40,812 bases of DNA from Clostridiales bacterium. GTDB taxonomy: Bacteria; Bacillota; Clostridia; Peptostreptococcales; T1SED10-28. Numbering within the stretch: the first letter of the stretch is position 1; every line of letters begins with the position of its first letter. Below, piece by piece: positions 5,274-40,607 of the stretch. The stretch lies in assembly GCA_007120165.1 (NCBI GenBank), contig SKOH01000058.1, forward strand, positions 1-40,812. Reading direction: 5' to 3'. The notes beneath the pieces are model-generated. The model was not told where the DNA came from, made no database searches, and was given only the letters and a program-made list of their open reading frames with translations. A program made the position numbers and the translations under genes.

Positions 5274-5314
5274 TTTTTCCACCACCTTCGAATAAATAAT
5301 CTTATTTTAGTATT

Positions 5315-5342
5315 ATTATACAGGTATTTGATATTATTGCAA
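5315..5342 (-). promoter_or_regulatory. Promoter of the 51-aa ORF
   Basis: Minus strand TTGCAA (5337-5342), 16 bp, TATAAT (5315-5320). Its -35 lies only eight bases from the -35 of the divergent apbE promoter. Confidence 0.7.
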
Positions 5343-5350
5343 GGCCTAAA

Positions 5351-5379
5351 TTGACTAATTTTCATTATTTTGATAAAGT
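5351..5379 (+). promoter_or_regulatory. Probable promoter of apbE
   Basis: TTGACT (5351-5356), 17-bp spacer, TAAAGT (5374-5379), giving a leader of about 105 nt. No riboswitch fold was recognised in that leader. Confidence 0.5.
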
Positions 5380-5492
5380 TATGAAGAGGTTTTTTTATCT
5401 TTTAATGAATAGAGAATTAATTTTAGGACAGCAGAAAAACCGGTACAGCATATTACGACGGTTGTTCAATTTAGTTTTAAGGAGTGGAAAAT

Positions 5493-6542
5493 ATGAAAAA
5501 GAGATTTGTCAGCAGCGTTTTTATTTTGGTCGTTTTTATTACTCTTGTGCTTTTGTTTGGTTGCTCTGAAGAGGAGGATTATCAGTTAATTCAAGAAAGC
5601 CGATTCGCTTTGGGAACATACAATCAAGTAACGGTTTATGCTCCCGGTGAAGAAGAGGGTCAAGGCATTATTAACGAGGTTTTTGCAAGAGTAGATGAAA
5701 TCGAAAGTTTAATGAGTTCCAATATTGATGACAGCGACATCTATATGTTAAACAGCCAAGCGGGAGAATCTGCCGTTACCGTAGATCCGGAAACATTTAA
5801 GCTGCTCCAGCTGGGAAAGGAATATAAAGACCTTACCGACGGTGCTTTTAATATCGGAATTGGAGCGTTAATTGCTCTTTGGGATATTGGCGGGAACGAC
5901 CAGAGAGTTCCAGAGGATGGCGAAATTCAAGAATTACTCAATCGGATTGATCTAAATCAGTTAACCTTAAATCAAAATAATTACGAGGCAAAACTTGAAG
6001 ATCCTGAAATGTCTGTAGACCTTGGAGGTATTGCAAAGGGTTATGCAGTGGACGAAGCCATTCGTATAATCGAAGAGCATGGCGTTGAACATGCCATAGT
6101 GGACTTTGGCGGCGATATTTACGTCCTTGGCAGCAATCCTGATGGCAATGAATGGAGAATTGGAATCAGTACTCCGGAAATTGGAGGTTCCGGTGTGGCG
6201 GCAAGACTTTTTTCTTCCGATATGTCGGTAGTATCCTCCGGTGACTATGAGCGTTATTTCTTTGAAGATGATCAGCTTTATCATCATATCCTTGATCCAG
6301 CCACCGGCTATCCTACGGATAATGAACTTTCAAGTGTAACCGTGGTCTCAAATACCGCTTTGGCAGGAGATGTTTTTTCTACCGCAATTTTTATTATGGG
6401 ATTAGAAGAGGGACTAGATTTCCTTAAGGATCAGGAGGACATTGAAGCCATTTTGATTACGAATAACAAGGAAGTATATCTAACTGATGGCATCGTTGAT
6501 CTATTTGAAATCATGGACGAGGAGTACATTATCGTTGAATAA
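5493..6542 (+). CDS. apbE: FAD:protein FMN transferase, lipoprotein (ApbE)
   Basis: The enzyme attaches FMN covalently to Thr/Ser of target flavoproteins such as the RnfG/RnfD or NqrB/C subunits of ion-pumping oxidoreductases. The N-terminus is a lipoprotein signal ending in the lipobox LLFGC (lipidated C24), so it acts outside the membrane. Family motifs seen: FALGTYNQV, GAFNIGIGALIALWDIG, VDLGGIAKGYAVD, VDFGGDIYVLG, SSGDYERYF, HILDPATGYP, and AGDVFSTAIFIMG with the Mg-binding Asp. I moved the start from the track's GTG at 5484 to the ATG at 5493, because the GTG lies within the AAGGAG ribosome site. No Rnf genes are in the window. Confidence 0.93.
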   Translation: MKKRFVSSVFILVVFITLVLLFGCSEEEDYQLIQESRFALGTYNQVTVYAPGEEEGQGIINEVFARVDEIESLMSSNIDDSDIYMLNSQAGESAVTVDPETFKLLQLGKEYKDLTDGAFNIGIGALIALWDIGGNDQRVPEDGEIQELLNRIDLNQLTLNQNNYEAKLEDPEMSVDLGGIAKGYAVDEAIRIIEEHGVEHAIVDFGGDIYVLGSNPDGNEWRIGISTPEIGGSGVAARLFSSDMSVVSSGDYERYFFEDDQLYHHILDPATGYPTDNELSSVTVVSNTALAGDVFSTAIFIMGLEEGLDFLKDQEDIEAILITNNKEVYLTDGIVDLFEIMDEEYIIVE

Positions 6543-6591
6543 ATCGGAATTTTTATATTAATGAATGACTATTCTAATAGCCTGCTAAATT

Positions 6592-6647
6592 AAAAACGTA
6601 ATCTAGCCCTTAAGTACCTTTATACTTTATTGGCAGATTACGTTTTT
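6592..6647. terminator. Bidirectional terminator between apbE and the HAD gene
   Basis: AAAAACGTAATCT (6592-6604) pairs perfectly with AGATTACGTTTTT (6635-6647) around a 30-nt loop. T-runs on both strands let it serve the two convergent genes. Confidence 0.7.
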
Positions 6648-6671
6648 ATTTAATGCATTCTATGGATGGAC

Positions 6672-7400
6672 TCAATCGAGAATTTCCACGTCGGTGCTCA
6701 ATTTATAAATTACATCCTTTCGTTCTACAATCACTTGAACCTTATCTTTCAATGCTTTATCGGATTTAATGTTAATTAATAATTCTTTTACCGGATTAAT
6801 AGCTGTCGGATTCCCCACAGCCCGCAACATGGAAATATCACCGTTGGTATCCCCATAGGCGTAGCTTTTCTTCAAATCCAGGTCATACTTTTCTTTAAAA
6901 TTTTTAATTGCCTCTTCTTTGCTGTGAGAATCCCACATTTGGTCAATCTCTCCGGTTAACAGGCCCTGATTATCTACATGATATTTAGTGCCTACGAAGT
7001 CCTGTACTCCATATTTTTCTGCCATTTTTTCTACTAAGTAATCCGGGCCTCCGGAAATAAAAATAATGGTATGTCCCTGATCTTTATGCCATAAAATTCG
7101 ATCACGGGTGTAGCGGTATACCCGCTCTCCTTTTTTAGCAATTACCTGATCACACATAAATTCCATGTGCTTACGATTGATTCCTTTAATGGAATTTAAG
7201 TAAATATGGGCTACTTCCAAAAGATAGTCTTCATAGTTTCCTTGTCGTTTATCCCAGTTGTGAAAAGTTTGCTTTGCCTCATTATGCCATATGGAAGGAT
7301 CGATAATCTCATATTTAATCATTTTTTTAAAATGTTCCACCATTAAGGAATCTCTGTATAGGGTTCCATCTACATCGAATAATGCGCCAATATTTTTCAT
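6672..7400 (-). CDS. HAD-superfamily (subfamily IB) hydrolase, phosphoserine-phosphatase-like
   Basis: A haloacid dehalogenase phosphatase with all four motifs: I, FDVDGT (nucleophile D9, general acid D11); II, FISGGPDY; III, the lysine in HSKEEAI; IV, YAYGDTNGDISML (metal-binding aspartates). The cap and order match the SerB-like IB group, which dephosphorylates phosphoserine and other small phosphomonoesters; the substrate cannot be read from sequence. I set the start at ATG 7400 (MKNIGALFDVDGT) rather than the track's 7439, because AAAGGAGAGG lies just before it and family members begin at the first motif. It is probably a single-gene unit. Confidence 0.85.
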   Translation of the reverse strand: MKNIGALFDVDGTLYRDSLMVEHFKKMIKYEIIDPSIWHNEAKQTFHNWDKRQGNYEDYLLEVAHIYLNSIKGINRKHMEFMCDQVIAKKGERVYRYTRDRILWHKDQGHTIIFISGGPDYLVEKMAEKYGVQDFVGTKYHVDNQGLLTGEIDQMWDSHSKEEAIKNFKEKYDLDLKKSYAYGDTNGDISMLRAVGNPTAINPVKELLINIKSDKALKDKVQVIVERKDVIYKLSTDVEILD

Positions 7401-7530: not shown

Positions 7531-9150
7531 TTAGGCTTGAGAATTCAACTTGATTTGATCCAATACAGAGTATGCTATATTTGAAGCATGGTCGCTGATA
7601 CGCTCAAGGTTACTGATAATATCTAAAAATACAACACCGGATCCGGTATTACAAAGATTGTTATTGAGTCGTTCAATATGATTGGAGCGGAGCTTTTTCT
7701 CCATTGCATCCACCTGGTTCTCAATTTCTAAAACTTCCAAGGCAAGTGCTTGATCCAGGTTAGCCATCGCAGTTAAAGACTTCTCATAAGCATCAATTGT
7801 CATTGTACTCATTTCGTCTAATTCATCATTTGCTTCTTCGGTAAAAAGTAAATTATTTTCCAGTTTATATAATGCCAATTCGGCGATGTTATCCGCGTGG
7901 TCTCCTACCCGTTCAATATCATTGATAGTATTAAAAAGTCCTGTTAAAATTTCTCGATTTTTCTTAGAGATATCGGTATTAGATAATTTTACCAGGTATG
8001 CGGATAATTCCCGTTCAATTTCGTTTACAACTTTTTCTATTCTAAACCCTTCCATGATCTCTTTTTCATTTTTATTGAAAAAGCCGGATAAAGCCGTGTG
8101 CAGAGTCTTTTTTGCTGTATTCCCCATGTGTAGAGTTTCGCGCATAGCGGAGTTTAATGCAATGGATGGGGTCTCCAGCAGTCGAATATCAACGTACTTG
8201 ATACCCTCCTGAATATCTTCCTCTCCCGGAACAATTTTTTTTGCGGTTTTAACAATTAATCCAGCAAAAGGCAACAGCATCAATGTGCTTACTATATTGA
8301 ATATCGTATGGGCATTAGCAATTTGTCGTGTGACATTATCCGGTGTTAAATATTCTACTACCCAGTAGAGTGGAGCTCGTAAAAAAATTAAAAATACCAG
8401 GGTACCTACCACGTTGAATACAAAGTGAGCAGCTGCAGCTCGCCGTGCGGTTCGATTCGCTCCAATTGAAGAAATAATTGCGGTAACAGTAGTTCCGATA
8501 TTTATTCCGAACAACACCGGAAGTGCCGCATTTAATGGTACCAAACCCTGAAGGGATAAAGCCAGAACGATACTGGTTGAAGCGGTACTACTTTGCAGTG
8601 CTACGGTAATGAAGAAACCGGCTAAGACACCCAATAGAGGATTGTCGGAAAAACTGATGATTAAATCTTGAAATGCCTGAAGCTCCCGAAGGGGCCGTAC
8701 GGCATCCCCCATAAAGCTCATTCCTACAAAAAGGATTCCGAAACCGATAAATGCTTCCGAGATTTGTTTAATTCTACGATTTTTTGTAACCAGCCAAATC
8801 AGTACTGCAATACCGATAATTATCGGTGCGTATTGATCAATGCGAAAGGAAATAACTTGGGCTGTAACGGTGGTACCAATATTGGCCCCCATGATAACCC
8901 CTACGGCTTGACTAAGATTCATCATCCCTGCATTTACAAACCCAACCACCATTACTGTGGTGGCACTACTACTTTGTACAATAGCTGTTACTACGGCCCC
9001 TACGACGACCCCTAAAAGACGGTTAGTGGTTAACAGACCGATAATATCTTTTAATTTGTCGCCGGCTGCCCGTTGTAAACTTGAACTCATAACATGCATA
9101 CCATAAAGAAAAAGACCAAGACCACCTAACACACCAAAAAATATTTCCAT
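7531..9150 (-). CDS. Na/Pi cotransporter family protein with C-terminal PhoU-like domain
   Basis: Two inverted copies of the Na/Pi-cotransporter repeat are present, each with its glutamine-serine motif (AIVQSSSATTVMVVG and ALQSSTASTSIVLAL), plus GANIGTTVTA and GINIGTTVTA. Together they form the membrane part (residues ~1-320). The remaining ~200 residues are helical and PhoU-like, with NDIERVGDHADNIAEL and NLERISDHASNIA repeats. It probably imports phosphate with sodium; the exact solute is inferred from family. I start at ATG 9150 (MEIFFGVLGG), which has GGGAGGC upstream; the track's extra 15 residues run through the ribosome site. An extended -10 promoter lies upstream. Confidence 0.9.
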   Translation of the reverse strand: MEIFFGVLGGLGLFLYGMHVMSSSLQRAAGDKLKDIIGLLTTNRLLGVVVGAVVTAIVQSSSATTVMVVGFVNAGMMNLSQAVGVIMGANIGTTVTAQVISFRIDQYAPIIIGIAVLIWLVTKNRRIKQISEAFIGFGILFVGMSFMGDAVRPLRELQAFQDLIISFSDNPLLGVLAGFFITVALQSSTASTSIVLALSLQGLVPLNAALPVLFGINIGTTVTAIISSIGANRTARRAAAAHFVFNVVGTLVFLIFLRAPLYWVVEYLTPDNVTRQIANAHTIFNIVSTLMLLPFAGLIVKTAKKIVPGEEDIQEGIKYVDIRLLETPSIALNSAMRETLHMGNTAKKTLHTALSGFFNKNEKEIMEGFRIEKVVNEIERELSAYLVKLSNTDISKKNREILTGLFNTINDIERVGDHADNIAELALYKLENNLLFTEEANDELDEMSTMTIDAYEKSLTAMANLDQALALEVLEIENQVDAMEKKLRSNHIERLNNNLCNTGSGVVFLDIISNLERISDHASNIAYSVLDQIKLNSQA

Positions 9151-14121: not shown

Positions 14122-14345
14122 ATCAAAAAAATCTTCCTCTCATTTAGAGACGAAGATTCGCGGTACCACACTAATTGATAAATGCTATACATTTATCCAC
14201 TCTTCGATTAACGGATCGTAACCGGTTTAGCTTACTGTTTTCAGCTAAACTGCTCCTTAGACGAGTTCGGTAACTTTGTCTGCCGCATCCCACCCTTTGC
14301 GGCTCTCTGTAAAACAAAGGCATTACCTACTACTTCCAATCATTG
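14122..14345 (-). promoter_or_regulatory. T-box leader (tRNA-Leu sensing) of leuS
   Basis: The minus strand carries the T-box core TGGTACCGCG (14159-14168), which pairs with the CCA end of uncharged tRNA. It is followed by a terminator: AATCTTCGTCTC/GAGAGGAAGATT and a run of seven T (14124-14157). Upstream, the Stem I region contains AGTA and GAACTC; the CTC (14263-14265) in the specifier-loop context is a leucine codon, matching the gene controlled. Low charging of tRNA-Leu should favour the antiterminator and leuS transcription. Confidence 0.93.
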
Positions 14346-14372
14346 CATTGAATATTCATTTATATACAACTG

Positions 14373-15485: not shown

Positions 15486-15845
15486 TGGTGGAGGCGGTGG
15501 GAATTGAACCCACGTCCGAAAGCCTTTCACCATCAGCTTCTCCGAGTGCAGTTACTATTTTGAATTTCACCTTTCAAAACGCCTAGTAACAGGCTTTAAG
15601 ATCGGCTAGTCCTAATTGTACAACGTAACGTCAGGACATCCGTTAAGTCGTTCCCCACATAGGTTGGCGTCTGTTCCTAAGCTGTGGGAACTTAGAAGAG
15701 ACGGGCTACCTAATAAATTAGGCAGCTAATGCGTAATTATTGTTATCTGCGTTTATCTTTAGTGCTCAGTTTTTTTACGTGTGAAAGAGCAAAACACGAC
15801 TCGCTACTGATGGATACAGACCCCCGTCGAAACCAGTACGCCCCC
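15486..15845 (-). ncRNA. ssrA: tmRNA (transfer-messenger RNA)
   Basis: A 360-nt tmRNA on the minus strand that rescues stalled ribosomes with SmpB. The 5' end GGGGGCG pairs with CGCCTCC before the encoded CCA (one G-U pair), forming the alanine-type acceptor stem; the T-arm GGACGTGGGTTCAATTCCCAC is intact. The mRNA-like part reads GCA GAT AAC AAT AAT TAC GCA TTA GCT GCC TAA (15718-15750), encoding the degradation tag ADNNNYALAA after the tRNA-borne alanine. Its first base is the last base of the smpB stop codon. It is co-transcribed with smpB and followed by a terminator. Confidence 0.97.
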
Positions 15846-28937: not shown

Positions 28938-28986
28938 TTCTTAAAGTGAAAAATAAAGAAGTTCGAGCCAGGATTAATTTTTGGCA

Positions 28987-29026
28987 TAAAAATTGCAAAG
29001 ACTTGAATAACAGAGGTCTTTGCAAT
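28987..29026 (-). terminator. Terminator of the yjjI-yjjW-nupOPQ transcript
   Basis: Minus strand ATTGCAAAGAC pairs with GTCTTTGCAAT (11 bp) around a 13-nt loop, followed by TTTTTAT. Confidence 0.85.
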
Positions 29027-29086: not shown

Positions 29087-30034
29087 TTACCTTCCACCCT
29101 TGTCATAAGGCTTACCCACTGCTTTCGGAGCAACAGACTGTCTGCTGAACAATACCAAAGCAATAACCGTCAGCACATAGGGGAGAGCAAAAAAGACTTC
29201 ATTGGGTAACTGAGCCAGAATCTCAAATCTTGAGGAATAAAGGGCAAAGATTCTTGAGAATCCGAAAAATAGCCCTGCCCCCAGTACCCCGATGGGTTTC
29301 CAGCGTCCAAAGATTAAAGCGGCTAATGCGATAAAACCGGTACCGCCTATACTCATTACTGTATATTGAATATCTTGAGTAAGGACCAGGATGCCTCCTC
29401 CAAGGCCTGCAAGAACACCAGAAATAACTACTCCAATATAGCGCATTTTAAATACACTAACTCCCATACTATCCAGAGCGTGAGGGTGCTCTCCAGCGGC
29501 TCTAAGTCGTAGGCCGAAAGGAGTTTTGTATAGAACAAACCAGCTTACAATCACTAAAATGATCGCAAGATGGACCGTTAAATATACCCGGGTAAATAAT
29601 ACATCCCCGATTAATGGGATCTCACTGAGTCCGGTAAAGGTATACCGCTGAAAACTTTGTGAAAAGCTCTGAGTTCTTTGTTGGCCGAAGATTACCTGGG
29701 CCATATAAATCGTTACCCCGGTGGCTAACATGTTAATAGCAACGCCGGAGATAATCTGATCCGCTTTTGCATGGATGCTTAGGTATGCATGAATTAACGA
29801 TATTAACCCGCCTACTATCGCTCCCAGTAAAATGGCGAGCCATGGAGCAAATGTGGTATAGGGCTGTAAATAAACCAAAGCCGTTGCGGCGGTAAATCCA
29901 CCGAACATCATCAGACCTTCCAGACCAATGTTAACAATACCGGACCTTTCAGAAAACATTCCACCTAAAGATGTAATAATAATGGGAGTGGAGAAAACCA
30001 CGGTTAAAGCAAGCATAGAGTATATTAAGCTCAT
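29087..30034 (-). CDS. nupQ: BMP-type (nucleoside) ABC transporter permease 2
   Basis: A 315-aa membrane subunit of the BPD_transp_2 class with about eight to nine helices. Characteristic: SERSGIVNIGLEGLMMFGGF near the start, and FGLRLRAAGEHPHALDSMGVSV, the cytoplasmic coupling helix. Family relatives include YufQ/NupQ of Bacillus and YjfF/RbsC-like permeases. It pairs with the upstream permease; the stop of the upstream gene and this start overlap by one base (TAATG type), indicating coupling. Substrate assignment to nucleosides rests on the BMP-family binding protein of the same locus. Confidence 0.9.
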   Translation of the reverse strand: MSLIYSMLALTVVFSTPIIITSLGGMFSERSGIVNIGLEGLMMFGGFTAATALVYLQPYTTFAPWLAILLGAIVGGLISLIHAYLSIHAKADQIISGVAINMLATGVTIYMAQVIFGQQRTQSFSQSFQRYTFTGLSEIPLIGDVLFTRVYLTVHLAIILVIVSWFVLYKTPFGLRLRAAGEHPHALDSMGVSVFKMRYIGVVISGVLAGLGGGILVLTQDIQYTVMSIGGTGFIALAALIFGRWKPIGVLGAGLFFGFSRIFALYSSRFEILAQLPNEVFFALPYVLTVIALVLFSRQSVAPKAVGKPYDKGGR

Positions 30035-31143
30035 TATTGTTCTCCCTCCTCTACCTTAAGTTTTTTCAGTGCAAGTTTAATGGGATGTTTCATAGCGACA
30101 AATACGATAATGATCGCAATAATTATGATCGCAATATCTCTCGGGATCCTGCTGATCTGCATAATCGTCTGGGAAGCCTTTAAACCGCCAAATAACAGTC
30201 CTGCAAGTACTGAACCAAGAGCGGTGCTTCCCCCAACAAGGGCGACTGCGATACCATCAAAACCGTAATTCTCAAAATGTCCGAGAACCCGGCCATACCC
30301 GAAGGTTCCAACCACTAAAATAGCGCCGGCAAGTCCGGATAATGCGCCGGCAATTGTCATGGAAAGGGCTGCATTTCTTTGTACTTTCATACCTGCATAT
30401 TCTGAAGCCAAAGGGTTAAATCCTACAGACTTTAACTCATAACCAAAAGTGGTTTTATTGATGATAAAGTAGAATAAAAAAGCACAAACAATCACGACTA
30501 GAAATCCCCAATGGAGCCGGGAATTATTGGTAATGGATGATAGGAAATCACTTTGTAATGTCGCTCTCGCTGGTAAATCCGCTGTTCGAGTACTGGTACT
30601 GTCAGGAAGAGCGCGGATATAGTAATTGGACACATACAAAGCCGTGTAGTTAAGCATAATGGTTACTACTACTTCATGAACCCGAAATTTTGCCTTTAAT
30701 ATCCCGGGGATGAAGCCCCAGAACGCTCCTCCTAAAGCACCTGCCAATAGGACAACAATTGGAAAAATAAACGCCGGTAAATTCAACATGAGTCCCGCAT
30801 AACTGGCAGCCAGAGCCCCAATCATAACCTGACCTTCTCCCCCAATGTTAAACAGTCCTGTTCTAAAGGCGAAGGATACCGAAAGCCCTGATAATATTAA
30901 TGGTATAGAATATACAAAAAACTCGCCAAAATACCGGGCGTTAAAAGCGGATTGATCGGTAAATAAATTCGGGAGGTTGATTCCCGTTACCGCTCTAATG
31001 AAAGAGGTGAAAAGATCTAAAGGATTTAGCCCGCTAAAAACCATAATTACGGATCCTGCTAAAAACCCTAGGACAATGGCGATAAAAGGAATTAAAAAAC
31101 TGTGATGTTCTTCATTTGCTAAAAAGCCTCTGAATTTATTCAT
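30034..31143 (-). CDS. nupP: BMP-type (nucleoside) ABC transporter permease 1
   Basis: A 369-aa permease with about nine helices. FRTGLFNIGGEGQVMIGALAASYAG and FGYELKSVGFNPLASEYAGMKV are the matching blocks of the YufP/NupP group; DGIAVALVGGSTALGSVLAGLLFG lies in the later half. Its start overlaps the end of the ATPase gene by eight bases, and its own last base overlaps the next permease, so ATPase and permeases are translated as one set. Confidence 0.9.
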   Translation of the reverse strand: MNKFRGFLANEEHHSFLIPFIAIVLGFLAGSVIMVFSGLNPLDLFTSFIRAVTGINLPNLFTDQSAFNARYFGEFFVYSIPLILSGLSVSFAFRTGLFNIGGEGQVMIGALAASYAGLMLNLPAFIFPIVVLLAGALGGAFWGFIPGILKAKFRVHEVVVTIMLNYTALYVSNYYIRALPDSTSTRTADLPARATLQSDFLSSITNNSRLHWGFLVVIVCAFLFYFIINKTTFGYELKSVGFNPLASEYAGMKVQRNAALSMTIAGALSGLAGAILVVGTFGYGRVLGHFENYGFDGIAVALVGGSTALGSVLAGLLFGGLKASQTIMQISRIPRDIAIIIIAIIIVFVAMKHPIKLALKKLKVEEGEQ

Positions 31144-32671
31144 CCTCTTTCACCTCCTTTTTCTTTGAACCGGCCATCATAAGTCCCAGTTCATTCTCAT
31201 CCGTTTCATCTGCCTGGACGATATCCACAATTTTTCCTTCATAAATAACCGCAATACGGTCTGATAGATTGAGAACTTCATCCAGTTCAAGAGACATTAA
31301 TAGGATGGCTCTACCTTTATCCCGCTCTTCTATTAGGCGTTCATGGATATATTCGATTGCCCCGACATCAAGGCCCCGGGTAGGCTGGGCTGCAATTAAA
31401 AGCTCCGGTGAACGGTAAAGTTCTCTTGCTACAATGGCCTTTTGCTGATTTCCTCCGGACATACCCCGTGCACCGGAAGTGCTTCCCTGTCCACTTCTTA
31501 CATCAAATTCCTCGATCCGCTCATCGGAGAATTTTCGAATTTCATCAAACTGTAAAATTCCGTTTTTGGAGAAAGGTTTTTGAAAATACGTTTGCAGAAT
31601 CATATTTTCTTCCAGACTGAAATCCAAAACCAGCCCTCTTTTTTGACGATCCTCGGGAATATGTCCAATACCCTTTAAGGTTTTTTGCCGAGTGCTCAAT
31701 TTTTCGATGGATTCTCCTTTGAGTAAAACAGAGCCCTTCTCTACCTCTCGAAGTCCGGTAATGGCTTCCATCAGATCTGACTGTCCATTTCCATCAATAC
31801 CGGCTACGGAAGTGATCTCACCGGCCCGTACTTCGAGATTAAGCCCCTTTACCGCATCCAATTTCCGATTGTTTTTAACCCATAAATCCTTCAGTTCCAA
31901 CACAACTTCTTTTGGTTTCGCCGGTTCTTTTTCCACCTCAAAACTTACCTCGCGGCCAACCATCATTTCCGCCATCTGTTCTTCAGAGGTTTCTGCCACT
32001 TCTACGGTACCGATATATTTCCCCTTTCGAAGTACCGTGCATCGATCAGCAACATCTTTAATTTCTTGTAATTTATGGGTAATCAGTACTATGGTCTTTC
32101 CTTCTTTTACTAAATCTCTCATAATTTTCATCAGTTCCTTAATCTCTTGAGGCGTAAGAACTGCGGTAGGTTCGTCCAATATCAGAATTTCAGCTTTTCG
32201 ATAAAGGGTTTTTAGAATTTCTGCTCTTTGCTGCATCCCTACGGAAATGTCGATGATTTTTGCATCCGGATCAACTCTAAGGCCATATAAGTCGCTGATC
32301 TCTTTTACTTTATCCCGAGCCGACTTCATATCCAGTCTTCTAAAGGATTTTGTAGGTTCTTCCCCTAGAATGATGTTTTCCGTCACGGTAAAATCCTCTA
32401 CAAGTTTAAAGTGTTGATGCACCATACCTATACCCAGTTTATCCGCCACTTTAGGATCAGTAATATTTACTTTTTCTCCCCTAACTTTAATTTCCCCTTT
32501 TTCCGGCTGGTAAAGACCAAAGAGAACACTCATCAGTGTAGACTTACCGGCGCCGTTTTCTCCGAGCAGGGCATGAATTTCACCTTCTTTTACTTTGAAG
32601 TCCACTTGGTCATTTGCTTTTATGCCGGGAAATTCTTTTGTAATTCCTAACATCTCGATTGCATACGCCAT
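31136..32671 (-). CDS. nupO: BMP-type (nucleoside) ABC transporter ATP-binding protein
   Basis: A 511-aa protein with two fused ABC domains, as in YufO/NupO and sugar-type transporters. Domain 1: Walker A GENGAGKST (37-45), signature SVGMQQRAEIL, Walker B LILDEPTAVLTP. Domain 2: degenerate Walker A GIDGNGQSD, signature MSGGNQQKAIVAREL, and LLIAAQPTRGLD. The second site is therefore probably weak or non-hydrolytic, which is normal for this class. AGGAG lies before the ATG, 16 bases after the yjjW stop codon, so it is very likely co-transcribed with yjjI-yjjW. Confidence 0.92.
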   Translation of the reverse strand: MAYAIEMLGITKEFPGIKANDQVDFKVKEGEIHALLGENGAGKSTLMSVLFGLYQPEKGEIKVRGEKVNITDPKVADKLGIGMVHQHFKLVEDFTVTENIILGEEPTKSFRRLDMKSARDKVKEISDLYGLRVDPDAKIIDISVGMQQRAEILKTLYRKAEILILDEPTAVLTPQEIKELMKIMRDLVKEGKTIVLITHKLQEIKDVADRCTVLRKGKYIGTVEVAETSEEQMAEMMVGREVSFEVEKEPAKPKEVVLELKDLWVKNNRKLDAVKGLNLEVRAGEITSVAGIDGNGQSDLMEAITGLREVEKGSVLLKGESIEKLSTRQKTLKGIGHIPEDRQKRGLVLDFSLEENMILQTYFQKPFSKNGILQFDEIRKFSDERIEEFDVRSGQGSTSGARGMSGGNQQKAIVARELYRSPELLIAAQPTRGLDVGAIEYIHERLIEERDKGRAILLMSLELDEVLNLSDRIAVIYEGKIVDIVQADETDENELGLMMAGSKKKEVKEDE

Positions 32672-32687
32672 AATATTTCTCCTATCT

Positions 32688-33413
32688 CTATAATATTATA
32701 GTAATATTTTTTAATCCCTCTTGCATTGCCAGATTTTTTAATTCATTCATTTTTTCAGCACTAGGAATATTATTCGCAATTTTAGTTCGTTGATGTAAAG
32801 AAAGCCCCCGATGATGTACGCGTATCAGTTTATATTCCACGTTCGGATAGTTTTTTAATAACTCTGCGGTTTTTTGTACGGTAGTTACCAAATCCATATA
32901 ATATTCGATACACACCGTTCGAACTTCGACAATTTTTTCAGCTTCCAACAAATTTTTTAAAATAAAAAGATCCTGGGGATAGGATAAACCCGTTAGGGTT
33001 TTCATATTCCCATAGGATTTTATGTCTACCAAGTATCCGTCGGTAACTTCAATCAAATTTTGATGTTCCTTCCAGTCAAAAATTAAATTTGTATCGATAT
33101 AACAAGTTAATGAATATTTCTTTATTTCTTTGAATAAAACTCTCAGAAAGTCCTTGTATAAAGTAGCTTCCCCACCGGAGACGGTGATCCCTTTTATAAA
33201 AGGCTTATATTTCAAAATTTCTTCCACTAATGCTTTCACAGTCATTTCCCTATAACCGTTAGAATTGCAGGGTTTAGGTATTGTCTCCGGATTATGACAA
33301 TAGACACATTTCAAATTGCAGCCCTGAACAAAAATTGCCGTGCGATTGCCGGGTCCGTCTACGTTGGAAAAAGGAATGATTCTATGCACCGGCAGGGTTA
33401 ATGCGTTATTCAT
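32688..33413 (-). CDS. yjjW: YjjW-family glycyl-radical enzyme activase (compact form)
   Basis: A radical-SAM protein that would install the glycyl radical on its partner YjjI. The cluster motif is CNLKCVYC (C32, C36, C39), preceded by IIPFSNVDGPGNR, typical of PFL-type activases, with SGGEAT binding SAM. Known YjjW proteins, as I recall, carry an inserted ferredoxin-like region with extra cysteine clusters after the CxxxCxxC motif. That insert is absent here, giving 241 aa. I start at ATG 33413 (MNNALTLPVHRII), which overlaps the yjjI stop (ATGAATAA). The track's start at 33467 is a TTG with no support. Confidence 0.85.
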   Translation of the reverse strand: MNNALTLPVHRIIPFSNVDGPGNRTAIFVQGCNLKCVYCHNPETIPKPCNSNGYREMTVKALVEEILKYKPFIKGITVSGGEATLYKDFLRVLFKEIKKYSLTCYIDTNLIFDWKEHQNLIEVTDGYLVDIKSYGNMKTLTGLSYPQDLFILKNLLEAEKIVEVRTVCIEYYMDLVTTVQKTAELLKNYPNVEYKLIRVHHRGLSLHQRTKIANNIPSAEKMNELKNLAMQEGLKNITIIL

Positions 33414-34929
33414 TTGATCGCCGTCTTCGTCTAAATACATTGGACATCTCGTCGGTACCGGCTCCAAGCATTGTGGTATCCCGTCGCACTACTTCTTCTT
33501 TTCGGGCTTTTTCCACTTCACTGCGTTTTACCAGGTAGCCGGTAACTCTTACCAAATCCCTGTTTTCACCGTAAAAAGATAAATACCGATGTCCCTCTTT
33601 AAAGCCCCCGATTAATATGTCTTCCAAGGCGTCGATATGGTCCAGATAGGTCTGATCGAAAGAGAATACGTCACCGACCCCGGAAGGAAAATACTGATGA
33701 AATTTGGATGATTGCATAAGATGCAGCGGCAGTGCAGGTTCTTCTCCAACTTTAATGCGGTGAGCCGGAGTATTATCCCGGTCGGTTTTATCAAGGCTTG
33801 CACCAACCTGAGCATGGAGAATATAGTTATTATTTGTACTTTGTGAAGAGACTCCCCGGTGGTTTTTAACAATGTCTTCAATGATTTGGAGGATTTCATG
33901 AGCCCAACGATCGCCGATCTCAGACTGGCCAAAAGTCTCCTTAATTCCTTGCATGATTAATAGTTCGTTTACGCAATCGGCTAAACCGATGATTCCCACC
34001 ATTCCTTGAAAAAGGTCCTTGTCAATAAAGCCTTCTGATACTAAGAAGGAAGTTTCGAAAAAATTACTTTGTTTTATCAAATATCGGATCCTTTTATCGA
34101 TCATTGATAATATGAGACCTGTGTATTTGGGCAATAGGGAGTTGATGAAATCTTCTTTACTATGAGCTTTTTTTACCAGGGTTCCAAGTTTCAGCCTCGG
34201 CAGGGTATAAGCACCGCCCCCAACCGGAAGGGCATTATAACAACTGGCAATACCATAACCGGAGTTTTCCTGCCCATAAATCTTGTGATTTGCAAAGGAA
34301 GGTTTGGCAACCTTTAACGCTGTTTTTAAAGCCCTCTGTAAGAACTCACTGTCATAATTATCTGGGTCGAGTTTCATCGTTAAATTTGGGGTGGGATTTT
34401 CTAATTCCTCCACGGCTTTTAGTATCAGTCTTCCTGCAGCAGTATCCCTTCCCGACAGATTACCATGACAAAAGGAATCGGAGATGGTTTTATCAATGTA
34501 ATTTAAAAATCTTTTAATTATATGGTAGTCCTGTTCTTCATTGGTAATAAAAGGATTAATCATAGTGTCCAGTTCTCCGATATAAACCGGGAAACTGGTA
34601 ATGGATGGTACATGATGATAAAGTATCCGAAGTCCTTCGAGTAAATCCTCTAGGGTATCGGGTTTTTCCAGCTCTAAGAAGGCGCACCCTTGTTTTATAA
34701 ACACCGAATAATTCGGGAGGATGTAGCGAGGTCTATAAATACCATAGCCTTCATTTAAGTCACAGATAATATGTTCAATTAGGCTCTCGTATTCCTCTTT
34801 AGAATAGTCCAAAAGCTCTCTGGGGTCCAGCATTCTTTCTGCTGCGTTTGCCAAGGCATGATGCTTTTGTTCGTAGGTCATGGAGCTGCTTTCAATGACC
34901 CCTCGAATTTCTTCTTTTGTTGCTATCAT
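33406..34929 (-). CDS. yjjI: YjjI-family glycine radical enzyme
   Basis: A 507-aa glycyl-radical enzyme. The radical site is VRVTGYLV (G464) near the C-terminus, and the likely thiyl-radical cysteine is C230 in GIASCYNALPVGGGAYTLPRL. Other blocks I associate with YjjI (DUF3029) are YRPRYILPNYSVFIKQG, LYHHVPSITSFPVYIGELD and FLVSEGFIDKDLF. It is not NrdD: it lacks the ATP cone and the C-terminal zinc cysteines and is far shorter. The substrate of YjjI is not known to me. The start has GAGGTG upstream. It is directly followed by its activase and then by nucleoside-type transporter genes; the transporter's binding-protein gene lies just upstream beyond a terminator. Confidence 0.9.
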   Translation of the reverse strand: MIATKEEIRGVIESSSMTYEQKHHALANAAERMLDPRELLDYSKEEYESLIEHIICDLNEGYGIYRPRYILPNYSVFIKQGCAFLELEKPDTLEDLLEGLRILYHHVPSITSFPVYIGELDTMINPFITNEEQDYHIIKRFLNYIDKTISDSFCHGNLSGRDTAAGRLILKAVEELENPTPNLTMKLDPDNYDSEFLQRALKTALKVAKPSFANHKIYGQENSGYGIASCYNALPVGGGAYTLPRLKLGTLVKKAHSKEDFINSLLPKYTGLILSMIDKRIRYLIKQSNFFETSFLVSEGFIDKDLFQGMVGIIGLADCVNELLIMQGIKETFGQSEIGDRWAHEILQIIEDIVKNHRGVSSQSTNNNYILHAQVGASLDKTDRDNTPAHRIKVGEEPALPLHLMQSSKFHQYFPSGVGDVFSFDQTYLDHIDALEDILIGGFKEGHRYLSFYGENRDLVRVTGYLVKRSEVEKARKEEVVRRDTTMLGAGTDEMSNVFRRRRRSNE

Positions 34930-34960
34930 TTTTTCACCTCAATTGTAATGATTCGCTAAA

Positions 34961-34988
34961 AAAACCAAGACTATAAAATCTTGGTTTT
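34961..34988 (-). terminator. Terminator between bmpA and yjjI
   Basis: Minus strand AAAACCAAGA pairs with TCTTGGTTTT around an eight-base loop, followed by more T. No promoter is visible between it and yjjI, so partial read-through is the likely way the downstream genes are expressed. This would give more binding protein than transporter. Confidence 0.8.
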
Positions 34989-35052
34989 TATAGCGAAATA
35001 TTAAATTCATAACTATTCTATTAACTTTCACTGATAGTTATACGTAAATGGA

Positions 35053-36120
35053 TTACTGTAATCTTTCAGGTGTAGTTGGCACTTCAATTTCACCGGCTAT
35101 AATTTGATCGATATAGTTTTGTACTTGTTCCAGAATATCGTCACTTAAATTTGGATTTTCCTCCGGCAAAGAAACCCCTTCGTTTTCTAAATCAAACTCA
35201 ATAATGTCTCCTCCAGGGAAGTTGCCTTCATAGGTCATTACGGACACTTCATAAGCCGCTACGTCTACTCTTTTCATCATTGAAGTAAGAACCGCTGAAT
35301 TATCTCCATCGTAGATTCCATCATCGTATTGGTCTCGGTCTACACCGATTGCCCATACATCATCTCCGCCGCTTCTTCGTTCCATGGCTTCGTTAATCAA
35401 TCCGTTACCAGAACCACCGGCTGCATGATAAATTACGTAAGCGCCATCATCAAACATGATGGATGCTATGGATCGTCCGGTTGACGGGTCAGAAAAATCT
35501 CCTACATATTCTACTAAAACAGTCATATTAGGGTCTACTGCATAAACCCCTGCTTCAAAACCTGCTTCAAACTTCTGAATTAACTCAAAGTCCACACCGC
35601 CGATGTATCCTACGGTGTCTTCTCCGGCTTCCTGGGCGGTAAGGGCTGCTGCCACTCCCACTAGGAAAGATCCTTGTTCTTCGGCAAAAATTGCATTTAC
35701 GATATTGTCTCGTTCTACAACCGCATCAATAAGCAAAAAGTTTTGGTTCGGGAAGTTATCGGCCACTTGACCAATAGCGTCTTCGAATAGAAATCCGGGA
35801 GCCACAATTAAATCAACTTCGTCATCTGCAAAACTTGATAGGTTGGGAACATAATCAGCATCCGCTTCGGATTGAAGGTAATTGGTCTCTGCACCATACT
35901 CATCAGCAAAATCCTGGATCCCTTCCCAGGTTCCCTGGTTGAAGGATTGATCATCGATTCCGCCGGTGTCGGTAACAAGGCCTACAAAAAAGTCTTCGCC
36001 ATTCTCCCCGTTTTCACCGTTTTCACCGTTTTCACCATTGTCATCTCCATTACAACCTGTTAATGCCAAAACCATTGTAAGTAAAGCTACCAATAACAAA
36101 ATCCATAAATTCTTCTTCAT
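35053..36120 (-). CDS. bmpA: BMP/PnrA-family substrate-binding lipoprotein (nucleoside type)
   Basis: Membrane-anchored binding protein delivering substrate to the NupOPQ-like transporter. The signal peptide ends in the lipobox LALTGC (lipidated C23). A linker of repeated Asn-Gly-Glu (NGENGENGENGENGED) follows, encoded by a 9-bp tandem repeat. The binding domain has LVTDTGGIDDQSFNQGTWEGIQDF, LIVAPGFLFEDAIGQVA and YIGGVDFELIQKFEAGFEAGV, typical of the BMP family, whose characterised members (PnrA, BmpA, NupN) bind purine or other nucleosides. The protein is strongly acidic. It has its own consensus promoter and AGGGGAGG ribosome site. Confidence 0.92.
   Translation of the reverse strand: MKKNLWILLLVALLTMVLALTGCNGDDNGENGENGENGENGEDFFVGLVTDTGGIDDQSFNQGTWEGIQDFADEYGAETNYLQSEADADYVPNLSSFADDEVDLIVAPGFLFEDAIGQVADNFPNQNFLLIDAVVERDNIVNAIFAEEQGSFLVGVAAALTAQEAGEDTVGYIGGVDFELIQKFEAGFEAGVYAVDPNMTVLVEYVGDFSDPSTGRSIASIMFDDGAYVIYHAAGGSGNGLINEAMERRSGGDDVWAIGVDRDQYDDGIYDGDNSAVLTSMMKRVDVAAYEVSVMTYEGNFPGGDIIEFDLENEGVSLPEENPNLSDDILEQVQNYIDQIIAGEIEVPTTPERLQ
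36000..36045. repeat. 9-bp tandem repeat in bmpA linker
   Basis: The plus strand shows repeated CCGTTTTCA-type units (coding strand GGTGAAAAC and close variants), about four copies, encoding Asn-Gly-Glu repeats just after the lipidation site. Copy number could vary by replication slippage. Confidence 0.8.
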
Positions 36121-36209
36121 TCTTCTACCTCCCCTAATGTAATATTTAGACTTTTACAGTACTAAAAAGAGTCTAATATTCCGTCCTGCGTTGCAAGGAC
36201 CTTAACCTC

Positions 36210-36238
36210 ATTATAATATAGCAAATCCCAAAATGCAA
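36210..36238 (-). promoter_or_regulatory. Promoter of the bmpA-yjjI-yjjW-nup locus
   Basis: Minus strand TTGCAT (36233-36238), 17 bp, TATAAT (36210-36215). The ~85-nt leader holds two small hairpins (GTCCT/AGGAC; TTAGACT/AGTCTAA) but not the conserved core of a purine riboswitch. Confidence 0.75.
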
Positions 36239-36297
36239 CGCTCATTTCCTTCTATACCCTGTAATTTAATCATTAAACTCCCCCGGTTAATTAAATA

Positions 36298-36354
36298 AAA
36301 GAACCCCTTTTTCCTAGGATAAGGGATATTATCTTGGCAAAAGTGGGGTTCTTT
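36298..36354 (-). terminator. Probable terminator of the grd operon
   Basis: Minus strand AAAGAACCCC pairs with GGGGTTCTTT, followed by TATTT. The 37-nt loop contains a second possible pairing (CCCTT/AAGGG) that would compete with the main stem. Confidence 0.65.
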
Positions 36355-39299: not shown

Positions 39300-40607
39300 T
39301 TAGTCAAATACGGTTTGTCCGCTGACTTCAGTGGTTAAGGCTACTAAAGACCGCTCAACAATTTTTCGTCGAAGGGCTTTTGCTTCTTCATGATCCAGCA
39401 TCGGACTTCCCAGTGGATGGGGAATGGCAATTGCCGGAACAATCCGGTTTGCTCCCACCGTTAAGGAAATCGGTACTACTGTACAAATGTGAACCACCGG
39501 AATACCGGCCCGCTCAATTTCTTTCACCATCGTTGCACCGCAACGTGTACAGGTACCTCAGGTGGAGGTTAGGATAACCGCATCCACTCCATCTTTTATC
39601 AGTTCCTGAGAAAACTCTTCTGCAAAGGCTTTGGAACTTGCAACGGAAGTTCCATTTCCGGTCGTAGTATAGAAGTATCGATGAAGCTCTTTGATTTTTC
39701 CTTCTGTTTCCAGGTCCCGTAACACGTCCACTGGAAGTACACAGTCTGCATCCGCATTGGCATAGGTGGGGTCATATCCACCGTGAGCCGTTTCATGACT
39801 GGCTTCTAATAAATCACCCAGATCTGCAATATCATATTTTCCGTATTTAGAAGCACTGGAAGACTCAATTCTATCAGGATTTCCCTTTGGAACAATTCCT
39901 CCCGAGGTTACTAGAGCAACTTTTGCTTTGGTAATGTCAACAATTGGAGGTAATGGGTCTACCCGGTCAAAATTTGGCATGGGATATTCTGTTGTAAAGG
40001 GTTCTCCAGCCATTTTTTTCATCAGCATATCCACCGCTCTTTTTGAACCTCTTGTTTCATGGAAATAGTTTTTTCGAACGCCCATGGGGATATAGTTGTC
40101 CTCATCAGGACTTCCAATTTCTTCTCCATGAAGCATCTTAATCGCCAGACTCGCCATTAATGGAATGGCTTTACGCATTTTTGCTGCGGAGTTGCCGGTT
40201 TCAATAATATGCACCGACTTTTTAAACATGTCTGCTCCGGGGTTTTCCGGATACATACCGGTCATGCTTGGAATGTTTAATTCTTTTTTTACAGCATCCG
40301 CAATCGTACCACAGGCTACACCGTATCGCCCTGCATTGAATGCCGGTCCTGCAATGAAAAGGTCTGCATCGTATTTCTTCACTAATTCCAATACTTCCTC
40401 TTTGGCCTCTTGAAGATTCTCATTAAAGTATGAGTCTCCACAAATAATGGTAGCTACTATTTCACCCTCATCTTTAAGAGCTGCTTGCAGTGCCATCCCC
40501 GGGCCTACGACCCCTTCTCTTACTTCCGGTTTGATATCTGCTTTTTCTTCTCCGCCGATACCGCCGAAAAATTGATTTATATAATGGACAATTCTCTTAG
40601 TACTCAT
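39300..40607 (-). CDS. Selenoprotein component B of glycine/sarcosine/betaine reductase (GrdB/GrdF/GrdH family)
   Basis: The track splits this gene at an in-frame TGA (39558-39560). Read as selenocysteine, it is one 435-aa protein with Sec at residue 350 in LTSTUGTCTRCGATM, the family's catalytic motif. Upstream parts (VHYINQFFGGIGGEE, VREGVVGPGMALQ, CGDSYFNEN, FIAGPAFNAGRYGVACG) and the tail (PISLTVGANRIVPAIAIPHPLG) are colinear with the family. Component B binds the substrate amine and passes its carboxymethyl group to the Sec of protein A. A hairpin suited to SelB lies just after the TGA. Substrate choice between glycine, sarcosine and betaine cannot be settled. The gene before it is on the same strand, with no grdA between. 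AGGGGGG precedes the start. Confidence 0.93.
39531..39545 (-). promoter_or_regulatory. Candidate bacterial SECIS hairpin
   Basis: CGTTGC-GGT-GCAACG forms a perfect six-pair stem starting 12 bases after the TGA, the distance expected for a bacterial SECIS that recruits SelB with Sec-tRNA. Confidence 0.7.

Follow-up and report, generated by a model that had tools for sequence, protein, structure and literature searches.

The 40,812-nucleotide contig SKOH01000058.1 of a Clostridiales bacterium (assembly GCA_007120165.1; hereafter the window) carries the genes of the oxygen-sensitive glycyl radical enzyme (GRE) YjjI and its activase YjjW inside the gene row of a nucleoside-type ATP-binding cassette (ABC) transporter, and the recurrence of this arrangement in other bacteria suggests that YjjI probably has a role in nucleoside or pentose metabolism. 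YjjI belongs to a known family without an assigned function, with its physiological placement being what is new here; no functional study of YjjI, DUF3029, PF11230 or HI0521 was found in the openly licensed literature. As described in the initial annotation, the list of open reading frames (ORFs) gives a six-gene row bmp–yjjI–yjjW–ATPase–permease–permease on the minus strand, from 36120 to 29087, with the stop of yjjI and the start of yjjW overlapping (eight bases; common letters ATGAATAA) and a gap of 16 bases between yjjW and the ATPase gene. The start of yjjW is the ATG at 33419, with the longer TTG start at 33467 being a mechanical artefact.

35053–36120, minus strand: bmp, predicted PnrA-type nucleoside-binding lipoprotein of the ABC transporter, 355 aa (PF02608, 271 bits; 2fqw, E 1e-109)
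33406–34929, minus strand: yjjI, YjjI-family GRE, 507 aa, predicted radical Gly464 and thiyl Cys230 (TIGR04040, PF11230)
32688–33419, minus strand: yjjW, radical S-adenosylmethionine (SAM) activase of YjjI, short form, 243 aa (TIGR04041 below cut-off; Radical_SAM PF04055)
31136–32671, minus strand: NupO-type ABC ATPase with two ATP-binding domains (PF00005 twice; NF047930, 478 bits, below the cut-off of 670)
30034–31143, minus strand: NupP-type ABC permease (PF02653, 142 bits)
29087–30034, minus strand: NupQ-type ABC permease (PF02653, 157 bits)

Genomic neighbourhood of yjjI

The initial annotation had linked YjjI to nucleosides and named a neighbourhood survey as the test of that link. Since a single-protein search found only five close relatives, family searches over whole genomes were used instead, with TIGR04040 run against genomes of the family, class and phylum of the window and of two other phyla, 20-kb regions taken, and E. 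coli, Haliovirga, Proteus, Vibrio and one Chloroflexota record added. The link survives this survey. BMP or nup genes lie within 10 kb of yjjI at 23 of the 78 loci with a called yjjI, and BMP genes do so in 19 of 63 genomes, which have 2.3 BMP genes each on average, compared with 1.03 expected (Poisson P ~5e-18, relatedness ignored). The BMP-linked state changes, by gain or loss, 10 times on the YjjI tree, with at least eight of these changes forced by well-supported branches, and the window's own YjjI falls in a supported clade whose 12 members are a mixture of nup-linked and unlinked proteins.

The gene order differs between loci, with bmp–yjjIW–nup found in the window and at L085, L086 and L113–L115, yjjIW–bmp–nup at L055, L080 and L082, and bmp–nup–yjjIW at L098–L100. 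Genes of nucleoside breakdown accompany the pair at several loci, most extensively in the operon udp–deoB–bmp–yjjI–yjjW–nup–cdd–add–deoC (L051), with deoC–deoB–bmp–yjjI at L072 and deoD–bmp–yjjI together with nup and cdd at L052 and L054. Elsewhere yjjW is followed by psuK–psuG (L069), encoding a PfkB kinase, whose best matches include pseudouridine kinase below the cut-off, and a PsuG-type glycosidase; by xpt (xanthine phosphoribosyltransferase) directly downstream at L104, L106 and L109; and yjjI has mtnA, a class II aldolase gene and a DeoR-type regulator gene nearby at L103. In E. coli, as the initial annotation had stated, yjjIW adjoins deoCABD and is transcribed divergently from it, so that the pair again neighbours deoxynucleoside catabolism genes, whereas in the window it is co-directional with the transporter genes. 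Counting any surveyed nucleoside neighbour, 29 of the 78 loci are linked. Because unrelated bacteria repeatedly have yjjI beside genes for taking up or degrading nucleosides, YjjI probably works on nucleosides or their sugars.

Co-occurrence points in the same direction, with BMP present in 63/63 YjjI genomes compared with 40/80 genomes without YjjI (Fisher P 3e-13), and DeoC in 63/63 compared with 58/80 (Fisher P 7e-7), the controls being sampled from the same groups and not matched for kinship or size. Restricting the controls to genomes of at least 1.5 Mb gives 39/71 for BMP and 50/71 for DeoC (hand count). E. coli has YjjI and no matched BMP, and BMP is therefore not required.

Two further observations were made in these surveys. 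Chemoreceptor (MCP) genes adjoin yjjIW at three loci of Clostridia (L042, L047, L048), two of them having a zinc-binding CZB domain, and one control genome without YjjI (G1110) has 23 BMP matches in 2.5 Mb.

Fold and active site of YjjI

YjjI of the window matches TIGR04040 with 654.9 bits (cut-off 498.3) over positions 2–497 of 497, and also matches PF11230. It shares with the E. coli (b4380) and H. influenzae (HI0521) members of this family a full-length match above the cut-off, the glycyl motif and a YjjW gene immediately downstream; its setting is different, within a BMP/nup operon and not next to deoCABD. The segments R461-V-T-G464-Y465 and S229-C230-x-N232 are conserved, with C230 and G464-Y465 invariant among 44 YjjI sequences, and the glycyl radical is predicted at Gly464.

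With the single YjjI sequence as query, no match was obtained in the PDB, and a profile search gave only weak, mixed matches to PFL, HPAD and NrdD. A fold search with the AlphaFold (AF2) model, which has a mean predicted local distance difference test (pLDDT) score of 92.2, returned class III ribonucleotide reductases (RNRs; NrdD) for all of the best 30 matches (E 1e-15, template modelling (TM) score 0.75 by query length), with PflD next (E 2e-12, TM 0.72). Cys230 pairs with the finger-loop cysteine of NrdD and with Cys419 of PFL, and Gly464 occupies the radical glycine position. Class III RNR is thus the nearest solved fold, with the finger-loop cysteine and glycyl loop at equivalent places; however, YjjI is shorter (~500 aa compared with ~700 aa) and is paired with YjjW instead of NrdG. 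The reductive cysteine of NrdD (Cys79 in T4, Cys175 in E. coli) aligns with the invariant Tyr69 of YjjI, in a profile alignment made with permissive settings and of low local confidence in this N-terminal part. Cys175 of E. coli NrdD is the cysteine of the reductive half-reaction (PMC4493059). Furthermore, the C-terminal four-cysteine zinc site before the glycyl loop (CGxxG...CPxC), present in 8/8 NrdD sequences, is absent from YjjI, as is the ATP cone, and NrdG models score far below their cut-offs against the partner, which is of the YjjW type.

The PFL-type GREs (PFL, PflD and the diol dehydratases) have the same barrel fold and comparable profile similarity to YjjI, with S229-C230 aligning with C418-C419 of PFL. 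They differ from YjjI, which is much shorter and has serine in place of Cys418 of PFL. GRE dehydratases carry glutamate at position +2 from the radical cysteine. YjjI has an invariant Cys230-x-Asn232 in place of the Cys-x-Glu of the GRE diol dehydratases. This does not point to plain diol dehydration, and ordinary diol dehydratase activity was downgraded as a candidate.

YjjW matches Radical_SAM (PF04055) and reaches 210 bits against TIGR04041, below the cut-off of 250 because it lacks a ferredoxin-like insert. Two forms of YjjW exist, with the eight-cysteine insert present in 54/71 homologues and absent in 17/71, including that of the window, which are scattered over the tree.

Transporter and loss of yjjIW in congeners

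The closest solved relative of Bmp is Treponema PnrA, a purine-nucleoside receptor, and the D-x(8)-F-N-Q region is conserved; ligand contacts have been described for the PnrA/BmpD family (PMC7093131). With its Bmp domain (PF02608) and close kinship to members with proven ligands, Bmp is assigned to this family, and nucleoside binding is predicted. The lipoprotein, double ATPase and two permeases follow the usual order of PnrA/BmpD and NupNOPQ-type nucleoside ABC transporters; in the window, however, the genes of YjjI and YjjW separate that of the binding protein from that of the ATPase.

This insertion varies between congeneric genomes. In G001 the row grd–bmp–ATPase–permeases–rpoN–gap–pgk (grd, glycine/sarcosine/betaine reductase) is that of the window minus yjjIW, with a 464-base gap (L125, 10896–11360) that keeps a stretch equal to roughly the final 18 codons of yjjW together with the hairpin described below; this genome has a yjjI of a different clade elsewhere, without nup neighbours. 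G002 (L130) carries a yjjIW fossil between bmp (7566–8615) and the ATPase gene (5285–6820), made up of a stop-containing stretch of 35 yjjI codons and of yjjW pieces with stops and deletions, and in G003 the start of yjjIW is intact at a locus that ends at the contig end (L039). The transporter proteins are 92–93% identical where yjjIW has been lost, and the flanking genes are intact in G001 and G002. These remnants make it most likely that the pair was present here ancestrally and has been lost at least twice. Decay of yjjIW beside an intact transporter indicates that the transporter can do without YjjI, the pair being an optional addition, and the decayed copies in G002 and G001 rule out an obligatory link between the two.

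Proposed role of YjjI and alternatives

Like the initial annotation, we infer that YjjI uses radical chemistry on a nucleoside, on the pentose of one or on something formed in its breakdown; that annotation further suggested that anaerobes might gain a new salvage or fermentation route in this way. In the proposed scheme bmp–yjjI–yjjW–nupOPQ would form a single transcription unit for nucleoside uptake, with the anaerobic radical enzyme acting on what the transporter imports, and to this explanation of the locus as a whole we give about an even chance. YjjW would generate the glycyl radical at Gly464, from where it would pass to Cys230, whose thiyl may then abstract a hydrogen from a pentose phosphate or from the pentose moiety of a nucleoside. 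The NrdD-like fold of the model makes a sugar substrate plausible. With the invariant Tyr69 in place of the reductive cysteine of class III RNR, the reaction would most likely be not deoxynucleotide synthesis but a non-reductive one (elimination, rearrangement, or C–N or C–O lysis), and the products might enter the DeoC/triose-phosphate route. Such specific non-reductive sugar chemistry is offered tentatively. With similar reserve, YjjI might represent a third type of radical enzyme acting on the ribose ring, a GRE resembling NrdD but minus the reductive cysteine, with a non-reductive reaction on pentose phosphates or nucleosides (e.g. isomerisation, or 2'-elimination that releases the base) in an unrecognised branch of nucleoside fermentation in anaerobes, including E. 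coli under FNR control. If true, this would be a new reaction type for GREs and a new step in anaerobic nucleoside use. With its role narrowed to the metabolism of nucleosides or pentoses, an RNR-like fold and a defined set of conserved active-site positions, the reaction of YjjI, which occurs in E. coli and many anaerobes, can be addressed directly in E. coli K-12.

Several results weigh against a nucleoside or pentose role or against the chemistry proposed for it. No surveyed nucleoside neighbour is found at 49 of the 78 loci; the co-occurrence counts ignore relatedness; profile comparison leaves NrdD and PFL-type enzymes unseparated (E 2e-14 and 6e-15); asparagine stands where a dehydratase would have glutamate; and the function is dispensable, with yjjIW decayed in two congeners whose bmp and transporter genes are intact. 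The large share of loci without such a neighbour and the loss of yjjIW from an operon whose transporter was kept would also be expected if the linkage were mostly passive, with BMP operons being common sites of insertion or rearrangement and YjjI serving an unrelated role, such as one in anaerobic metabolism at large or the nitrogen-related one that was predicted because of co-expression with nitrate genes (PMC3228777). Additionally, five loci of Bacilli (L080–L083, L088) lie in a housekeeping region, flanked by peptidase-like genes and, at the opposite end, by RNase J and FtsK-like genes (named by eye). Passive linkage is however difficult to reconcile with the excess of BMP neighbours over the 1.03 expected, the repeated independent linkage, the differing gene orders, and the recurrence of nucleoside genes other than BMP, and we consider this alternative unlikely. 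We hold it equally unlikely that YjjI serves nucleoside catabolism by acting on a nucleobase or a small product such as acetaldehyde or glycolaldehyde, instead of on a pentose or whole nucleoside. The position of xpt directly downstream of yjjW, the presence of DeoC in every YjjI genome tested, and the recurrence of aldolases releasing two-carbon aldehydes as partners (DeoC; the class II aldolase at L103) are in keeping with such a substrate, and a hpt–pduL–deoC cluster in the window's own genome (L132, C169, 9252–11080), encoding a PduL-type phosphotransacylase, could take acetaldehyde carbon to acetyl phosphate. In contrast, the nearest fold is that of an enzyme acting on the ribose ring, and the psuK/psuG, cdd and mtnA neighbours indicate a nucleoside or sugar.

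The NrdD-like fold, the conserved finger-loop cysteine and glycyl motif, and an earlier prediction of an NrdD-like domain (PMC3228777) could alternatively suggest a small class III ribonucleotide (or ribonucleoside) reductase making deoxyribose units for DNA or for DeoC. The missing reductive cysteine argues against the usual deoxynucleoside-forming reduction, albeit from an N-terminal alignment of low confidence, and with the zinc cysteines, ATP cone and NrdG also lacking, a reductase is very unlikely. Least probable of all is a transporter with another kind of substrate, such as vitamin B6, which would make the nucleoside reading of the operon wrong. Whilst 'putative B6 ABC transporter' models come out top in NCBIfam for each of the four transporter proteins, all four score far under the cut-offs of these models (e.g. 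85 compared with 400 for Bmp), and Bmp matches solved nucleoside receptors, a family with ligand data, far better. The B6 label was dropped on score. The reading that we prefer remains action of YjjI on nucleosides or their pentoses.

Transcription signals and regulation

The initial annotation found no internal promoter evident, and this holds, with 40 promoter-like sites compared with 36.5 by chance over 26–40.8 kb. It overlooked that a strong T-run hairpin separates bmp from yjjI, so that expression of yjjIW–nup would need read-through past this element. Its sequence is retained 3' of bmp in G001 and G002. Hairpins of this kind are frequent downstream of binding-protein genes.

36293–36354, minus strand: terminator of the upstream grd genes, setting them apart from the bmp unit (fold −18.6 kcal/mol)
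36210–36238, minus strand: putative promoter of the bmp–yjjIW–nup unit (TTGCAT, 17, TATAAT), conserved in four congeneric genomes
36188–36241, minus strand: region within an eight-base inverted repeat GCGTTGCA / TGCAACGC around the bmp promoter, possible operator (arms 36234–36241 and 36188–36195)
34953–34996, minus strand: hairpin with T-run between bmp and yjjI, likely an attenuator or mRNA-stabilising element (fold −23.5 kcal/mol)
28985–29026, minus strand: terminator downstream of the last permease gene (fold −12.7 kcal/mol, then a T-run)

The whole bmp–yjjIW–nup unit is putatively bounded by this conserved promoter and the terminator at 28985–29026. Across four congeners the right arm of the repeat is invariant and the left arm has one substitution, in G001; the repeat resembles half-sites of the E. 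coli nucleoside repressor CytR. The intervening terminator and separate promoter led us to reject a functional tie of yjjIW to the grd genes, as did the retention of grd in both G001 and G002, with yjjIW gone from the first and decayed in the second.

FNR is a direct activator of yjjI in E. coli (PMC3688515), and in enterotoxigenic E. coli CRP binds between yjjI and deoC (PMC4287617), with yjjI and yjjW also listed in the anaerobic transcriptome of Yersinia intermedia (PMC3792023). A Crp/FNR-type regulator gene lies directly upstream of yjjI at L053 and L055, with related genes beside yjjIW at L096 and L116.

Other features of the window

A grdB-type selenoprotein gene has a selenocysteine insertion sequence (SECIS) element at its in-frame TGA (39520–39557 and 39558–40607); the listed ORF is cut at this selenocysteine codon. 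A T-box leader upstream of a leucyl-tRNA synthetase-like gene and a tmRNA gene are also present (14143–14352 and 15486–15845).

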